In this document: positions 26,793 through 27,594 of the stretch, piece after piece
Layout: each line of letters begins with the position of its first letter
How positions within the stretch are numbered: the first letter of the stretch is position 1
Origin: an uncultured Ectothiorhodospiraceae bacterium
GTDB lineage: Bacteria; Pseudomonadota; Gammaproteobacteria; S012-40
DNA length: 37,983 nt
Direction: 5' to 3'
Assembly: GCA_945787715.1 (NCBI GenBank)
Contig: CALZJE010000033.1
Coordinates: 1-37,983 of the forward strand
The notes under the pieces: generated by a model
Seen by the model: the letters and a program-made list of their open reading frames with translations, nothing else
What the model was told of the DNA's origin: nothing
Database searches by the model: none
Translations under genes and position numbers: made by a program

Positions 26793-27236
26793 ATGGAACT
26801 CATACCAATAACTACTAATATTGCAGTTTTTTTAGCAATTCAGATGTTTGTCTTAACATTAATGGTCTCTTTTCGTCGTGTTAGTCTGGGAAAAGCGGAA
26901 GGTGATGTTGCTAAATATCCAATTCATGATGGAAACGACGAACTACTAGCGCGTCGCATTGGTGCATTTAGTAATTTTATTGAATATGCACCTATGTGCA
27001 TTATTATGCTTGCATTACTCGAAATCAGTGGGGCTTCAGCTGCATTAATATGGGGATTAGGAGCTTCTTTTGCTGTTGGGAGGGTGCTACATGCTATTGG
27101 CATGTTCATCAATCCGCATTTCCCTTTACCTAGAATCATTGGAATGTTTGCAACCTATGCTGTACTTCTAGCCCGCATTTCTCACAGGGGCGCGAGAATA
27201 TCACGAAGAGATTTGATTCTACAATGGATTTTCTGA
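26793..27236 (+). CDS. MAPEG-family membrane protein with C-terminus replaced by a MITE
   Basis: A 147-codon frame. Residues 1-126 match the MAPEG family (membrane-associated proteins in eicosanoid and glutathione metabolism): an N-terminal helix, R-R-I-G-A-F-S-N-F-I-E-Y-A-P-M in the conserved R..AH.NF.EyaP position, a helix, G-R-V-L-H-A-I-G-M, and the start of the last helix. From codon 127 the frame enters the inverted-repeat element and adds 21 unrelated, basic residues (A-R-I-S-H-R-G-A...). Removing the element and one TA copy joins the frame to nine codons M-P-A-F-W-F-L-A-N and TAA at 27361-27363, giving 135 residues, a normal length. The present protein thus lacks the end of its last membrane helix and may be impaired. 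GAAGGAAA precedes the ATG. Confidence 0.8.
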   Translation: MELIPITTNIAVFLAIQMFVLTLMVSFRRVSLGKAEGDVAKYPIHDGNDELLARRIGAFSNFIEYAPMCIIMLALLEISGASAALIWGLGASFAVGRVLHAIGMFINPHFPLPRIIGMFATYAVLLARISHRGARISRRDLILQWIF

Positions 27237-27333
27237 TTGAGCGGAATACTTACTGTATTTCCGATTGAAGAATATCCATTGTAGAATCAAGGATCAAGTG
27301 AGATTACGTGAATCCTGTGAGAAATGCGGGCTA
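27171..27333. mobile_element. 161-bp MITE with perfect terminal inverted repeats and TA duplication
   Basis: The ends GCCCGCATTTCTCACAGG (27171-27188) and its exact complement (27314-27331) enclose 161 bp. Both sides are flanked by TA (27169-27170 and 27332-27333). A second inner inverted pair, GATTCTACAATGGATTTTC (27215-27233) against 27270-27288, has one mismatch, so the element can fold nearly end to end. It has no coding capacity. TA target duplication is the hallmark of IS630/Tc1-mariner transposases, so a full-length IS630-type element elsewhere in the genome is the likely source. Confidence 0.85.
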
Positions 27334-27594
27334 ATGCCAGCCTTTTGGTTTTTAGCGAACTAAACTTTTCTATAACGATTTTATAATGCAAGTGCTGAAG
27401 TTTTTGCCTCAGGGTACAATGCAACTCTTCGGGATTGGATTCAATACTTTGGTAAACTTACAACTACTTGTTATAAGTTTTTTACTAAGCTGCCCAACGC
27501 TGAAAGTCTCGATACAATTAAGGGCACCTCCGGAAATTAATTTATAGCGCGCTGACTGCGTTAAAGCCAAACTCAAGGCCCGCGCTTACAAAAA

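Follow-up and report, generated by a model that had tools for sequence, protein, structure and literature searches.

A miniature element with IS1380-family ends interrupts the end of a MAPEG-family gene in an uncultured Ectothiorhodospiraceae bacterium

Results

A hairpin-forming miniature element lies within the last codons of a MAPEG gene

The stretch of DNA analyzed here (the window; 37,983 nucleotides of contig CALZJE010000033.1, assembly GCA_945787715.1) carries a MAPEG-family gene whose end is interrupted by a miniature inverted-repeat transposable element (MITE; Table 1). The 147-residue product matched Pfam profile PF01124 over residues 10 to 127 (profile positions 4 to 122 of 129; E = 7.8e-20) and scored 71.8 bits against a curated cutoff of 23.4, placing it in the MAPEG family; the last 7 positions of the profile were absent. 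MAPEG proteins have four membrane helices. Codons 1 to 126 contain neither a frameshift nor a stop, and the protein carries the invariant residues of a 24-sequence MAPEG alignment, by definition of that alignment. The remaining 21 codons encode a basic tail, ARISHRGARISRRDLILQWIF, read in frame from the element, as an earlier model-made description based on the letters of the DNA (the sequence-only reading) had noticed.

That reading also placed a MITE with perfect 18-bp terminal repeats at the end of the gene, in agreement with the inverted ends found at 27171-27188 and 27314-27331, each with TA just outside it. With up to 3 mismatches allowed, the 18-mer end occurred at two places in the whole window (chance mean of 0.01; two or more in 0/100 shuffles). 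When positions 27168-27334 were folded as RNA, a single hairpin resulted (−90.5 kcal/mol; z = −14.2), a stability equaled in none of 200 shuffles. The element is short and non-coding, has perfect inverted ends of 17 to 18 bp, exists in several copies, and contains no transposase, as is characteristic of MITEs. The total insertion is 163 bp and the restored frame is identical whether the element is parsed as 159 bp with a 4-bp duplication or as 161 bp with a TA duplication.

Table 1. Features at the interrupted end of the MAPEG gene (window coordinates)
Feature	Position	Strand	Details
MAPEG-family ORF, present reading	26793..27236	+	147 codons plus TGA stop; PF01124 match
MAPEG codons 1-126, host-encoded	26793..27170	+	Ends where homology to relatives stops
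21-codon tail translated from the element, codons 127-147	27171..27233	+	Not in 23 aligned MAPEG relatives
Original gene end, displaced and no longer translated (MPAFWFLAN, TAA stop)	27334..27363	+	BLOSUM62 score of 23 versus the end of L212
IS1380-type MITE, 159 bp, one long hairpin	27172..27330		Alignment of own-genome copies; duplication survey; fold
Left terminal inverted repeat, CCCGCATTTCTCACAGG	27172..27188	+	End search and copy alignment
Right terminal inverted repeat	27314..27330	-	End search and copy alignment
Left target copy, CTAG	27168..27171		4-bp direct duplication model
Right target copy, CTAA	27331..27334		One mismatch versus the left copy; 4-bp direct duplication model

An uninterrupted relative matches the restored gene end

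When the flanks were joined across a single target copy, a 135-residue protein resulted that ends in MPAFWFLAN with a stop at 27361-27363, the end that the sequence-only reading had obtained by excision in silico; when the left target copy was taken, the end read VPAFWFLAN. The other two frames past the join gave unrelated tails. The best relative (L212 in genome G310; 48% identical) has no insert and confirms this end at the protein level: it terminates in FVVPAIWLLFA and stops at the same position as the restored VLL(M/V)PAFWFLAN. Aligned with the L212 end, the restored nine residues had a BLOSUM62 score of 23 (26 with V), versus −16 for the present tail, and a score of 23 was reached by only 3 of 48,028 control nine-residue strings taken from the six frames of the window. 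The V in L212 fits the CTAG copy, which suggests that CTAG was probably the original target; an element-free allele would be predicted to end VLLVPAFWFLAN, with CTAG as the target.

Relatives sharing the tail, or an absence of both repeat copies and an empty site, had been named beforehand as outcomes that would speak against the insertion. The tail was found in 0 of 23 aligned MAPEG relatives (123 to 143 residues long; L046 was left out of the alignment, and L043 and L047 had no tblastn match), and further copies of the element exist. Nine additional matches with the tailed protein, in genomes G375, G362, and G225, covered the tail or little more, and the nine stretches around them contained 8 element copies; judged by these stretches, the matches are element copies, not tailed MAPEG genes. 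As for the comparison with an empty site, L212 provides an uninterrupted relative at the protein level, but no DNA-level empty site was found in a close relative, and the one other same-genus genome among those searched had no MAPEG match. L212 comes from another family, and its neighborhood contains none of four other window proteins tested, the MAPEG protein alone matching of the five. A pattern scan of species-genome contigs with the MAPEG protein returned 48 pattern matches and no relative.

The insertion shortens the last membrane helix

In the terminal region of the protein, the highest hydropathy mean over 19 residues was 1.96 in the joined form versus 1.34 in the present one, and the Pfam match extended to profile position 128 of 129 in L212 versus 122 in the window protein. 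By these measures, the final membrane helix is cut by the insert, and the end positions of the MAPEG domain are lost. With the helix shortened and the domain end lost, impaired folding or activity would be expected, and an impaired protein or a pseudogene appears more likely than a gained function. The change may also be tolerated, the rest of the gene being open.

The gene could already be a dead remnant, with the element as its lesion, an option that overlaps with the impaired-or-dead outcome just described. The truncated last helix is consistent with gene death, as is the presence of the same element inside another domain-bearing ORF of the same genome (L002). However, the 126 host codons have acquired no further frameshift or stop and keep the invariant alignment residues (again by definition). 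We regard outright death as possible but somewhat doubtful.

Copies of the element occur in the own and other genomes, and some are entered by other reading frames

Further copies, which the sequence-only reading had proposed to look for, were found. The genome to which the window belongs (4.40 Mb in 227 contigs, the window being contig C33) contained 24 matches to the element, with 8 distinct full-length copies; the seven other than the window copy were 73 to 86% identical to it. Element matches were present in 4 of 56 related genomes, own genome counted. An exact scan of species genomes for the terminal 21-mer pattern gave at least 118 stretches, from several phyla by record title; the 80 loci listed serve as a sample, in which single-ended matches may include chance ones. 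Among the scan matches listed, the same ends occurred in records named Gammaproteobacteria, Alphaproteobacteria, Acidobacteria, Myxococcales, Planctomycetes, and others.

A second set of MITEs has the inner hairpin in common with the window element and differs in its ends (CCCGGATA...TTCATGAA type). It was seen in the own genome, among loci L009-L021, and in genome G003 (L082, L085, L087, and L088), which had 15 matches to the inner part of the window element. This set looks as if its ends had been exchanged.

In total, 65 element copies were examined (7 from the own genome, 8 from the genomes bearing tail matches, and 50 from elsewhere), and several were entered by ORFs of at least 60 codons. 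Eight element-entering ORFs besides the MAPEG gene were scanned against Pfam: three had a domain above the cutoff (a GNAT/FemAB protein, L081; a calcineurin-like phosphatase, L131; and an AbiEii-like protein, L002), and five had none. Read-through into the element thus occurs in real genes, with most such frames probably arising by chance. The L002 copy (1504-1662; genome G000 contig C125, 9009-9173) belongs to the own genome and has exact CTAG target copies; the surrounding ORF matches an AbiEii nucleotidyltransferase (PF08843; E = 2e-7) and reads 49 codons into the element. At L131 (2140-2967), the phosphatase ORF, which resembles ApaH by eye, stops four codons into an IS1380-type MITE.

When a CTAG site is entered in frame with its CTA, the left terminus encodes L-A-R-I-S-H-(R/Q), and LARISHR-like tails from this frame are carried by other ORFs, the FemAB/GNAT protein included. 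Such recurrence, together with an otherwise intact MAPEG frame and target copies that differ by one base (so that the insertion is probably not very recent), would be compatible with a useful, selected protein end. The tail, with the hydrophobic residues at its close, would then finish the final helix or stand in for it and change how the protein behaves. We nevertheless consider such an exaptation unlikely, since the final hydrophobic stretch is partly lost to the insert along with the terminal domain positions, the tail is in no aligned relative, and most of the tail-bearing ORFs scanned (five of eight) lack a Pfam domain, as chance read-through predicts. The "protein end replacement" described in the sequence-only reading holds for the anatomy; nothing shows the new end to be useful, and the partial loss of the last helix argues for damage. 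We regard as very improbable the broader idea that IS1380-type MITEs provide otherwise unrelated proteins of many bacteria with one and the same short basic end, which might serve as a common stability or localization signal and which selection might retain in some hosts.

Target duplications and shared ends point to IS1380 parentage

Palindromic flanks (such as CTAG on both sides) fit both a TA and a 4-bp duplication, and only non-palindromic flanks can therefore decide between the two. To be included in the survey, an element contributed one pair of ends with both cores within 2 mismatches; one of the 8 own copies (L003) was lost by this rule, and two double left ends were dropped. The 49 copies from beyond the own set included 20 with identical 4-mer flanks, 6 of them non-palindromic, whereas non-palindromic inverted 4-mers were seen in 0/49. 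YTAR flanks were found on the left in 38 and on the right in 39 of these 49 copies, and CTAG was commoner than TTAA among target sites. Five of the seven own-genome copies had exact direct 4-mers, all palindromic. At the window copy the duplication is not exact, three of four bases agreeing between CTAG and CTAA; this, and the limit of 20/49 exact repeats elsewhere, counts against a 4-bp duplication. Because non-palindromic repeats were direct and never inverted, the flanks indicate that this family duplicates 4 bp at a YTAR-like target. For the 161-bp element with TA duplication put forward in the sequence-only reading, the total insertion and the frame stand; the parsing does not, as the copies favor 159 bp with a 4-bp CTAG/CTAA duplication.

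Seeking far-apart paired ends among the terminal 21-mer loci yielded L103, a 1,650-bp element of Bradyrhizobium sp. sGM-13 with CTAA on both sides and the 13-bp core CCCGCATTTCTCA at both ends, one of them with a single mismatch. The protein that it encloses is an IS1380-family transposase (NCBIfam NF033539 transpos_IS1380, E = 4.8e-119; PF13701, E = 5.4e-149). The MITE and a complete IS1380-family element thus have terminal repeats in common, as expected of an IS1380 derivative. A search of 398 genomes from the phylum with the L103 transposase found matches in 14 at a threshold of E = 1e-60. In a set of 23 IS1380-type loci that included L103 and an own-genome ORF on contig C150, the core lay within 2 mismatches at both ends of 8, and the top-ranked end pair had an exact 4-bp duplication (CTAG, CTAA, CTAT, or TTAG) in 10, under a ranking that rewarded exact 4-bp repeats and with four of the 10 in one genome. 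Genome G500 has four equally scoring IS1380-type copies (L239, L253, L257, and L259) at CTAG/CTAA sites, each carrying a single TGA within the match.

PF13701 matched three places in the own genome. One is an intact 469-aa frame on C150, the sole intact IS1380-family ORF there, and no matching ends were found in its flanks. No autonomous element with matching ends was found in the own draft assembly (227 contigs); such an element is usual for IS1380 derivation but not required, as the parent may be lost. In nine genomes holding or near the MITE, the L103 transposase had matches in two, partial or weak, and none in the own genome. Judged by the evidence at hand, the MITE is filed as IS1380-derived on its ends and target only. 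The IS630/Tc1-mariner-type parent suggested by the sequence-only reading, with TA duplication and 18-bp ends, was rejected as highly improbable: although each perfect 18-bp end is bordered by TA and palindromic CTAG-type flanks fit either model, non-palindromic 4-mers were direct in 6/49 copies and inverted in 0/49, the same ends flank IS1380-family transposases, and the only IS630-type signal in the own genome was one weak, sub-threshold DDE_3 fragment.

Discussion

The copies, the ends, the duplication pattern, the restored frame, and the homology of the displaced end, all visible in the DNA itself, make it very probable that a 159-bp MITE with IS1380-family ends inserted with a 4-bp duplication into the end of an intact MAPEG gene. 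We propose that this non-autonomous element entered within the last ten codons, moved by an IS1380-type transposase into a YTAR site, most likely CTAG, of which 4 bp would have been duplicated. The transposase presumably acted in trans, because the own genome yielded no autonomous copy that matches. One frame via the left end of the element is open, and 21 codons would now be translated into the hairpin before a stop is met; the nine residues that once closed the protein and completed its last membrane helix would no longer be translated. The MAPEG protein is probably impaired or the gene becoming a pseudogene, and the hairpin may also end or stabilize the transcript.

The locus illustrates clearly how a miniature element can rewrite the way in which a membrane protein ends; a relative confirms the end that was lost. 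The IS1380 parentage and the YTAR target outweigh the single case: because the same ends occur in records named for many bacterial groups, annotators can recognize such tails as element-derived. No description of this MITE family was found among the open-licence papers listed for MITEs, IS1380, or piggyBac, and those listed for its exact end letters were unrelated by title; the MITEs reported from Thiomargarita, in the text available, are of other families (PMC4853749).

MITE-supplied protein ends are already known. As far as the accessible parts of these reports go, in Coxiella burnetii Dugway, QMITE2 at enhC supplies 33 residues of EnhC (PMC5896051), and RU-1 (ERIC) extends the ECA3499 amidase of E. 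carotovora, with ERIC-type repeats in several enterobacterial protein ends (PMC2759123). Like these, the window element is read in frame and forms the end of a protein. In those accounts, however, ECA3499 is extended past its domain and EnhC is affected at its 3' end, whereas the element here cuts the domain end and shortens the last helix.

With IS1380-family insertion sequences and MITEs the window element has in common the core of L103 and YTAR-type 4-bp duplications, as at IS1380 loci; in contrast to the insertion sequences, it is only 159 bp long, lacks a transposase, and has a long hairpin as its interior. Four base pairs are not universal in the family, since a 5-bp duplication is listed for IS1247 of Paracoccus in the part of the source available (PMC3281130). 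Excerpts of two papers describe IS1380 transposases as an outgroup of piggyBac (PMC10813416) and as distantly related prokaryotic transposases (PMC10140906), and give TTAA as the usual piggyBac duplication (PMC10813416, PMC10140906). The window element resembles the piggyBac superfamily in its 4-bp TTAA-like target and in ends starting with CCC, and differs in being bacterial and in its YTAR target. The window case is well supported and ordinary in kind, with a corrected parentage.
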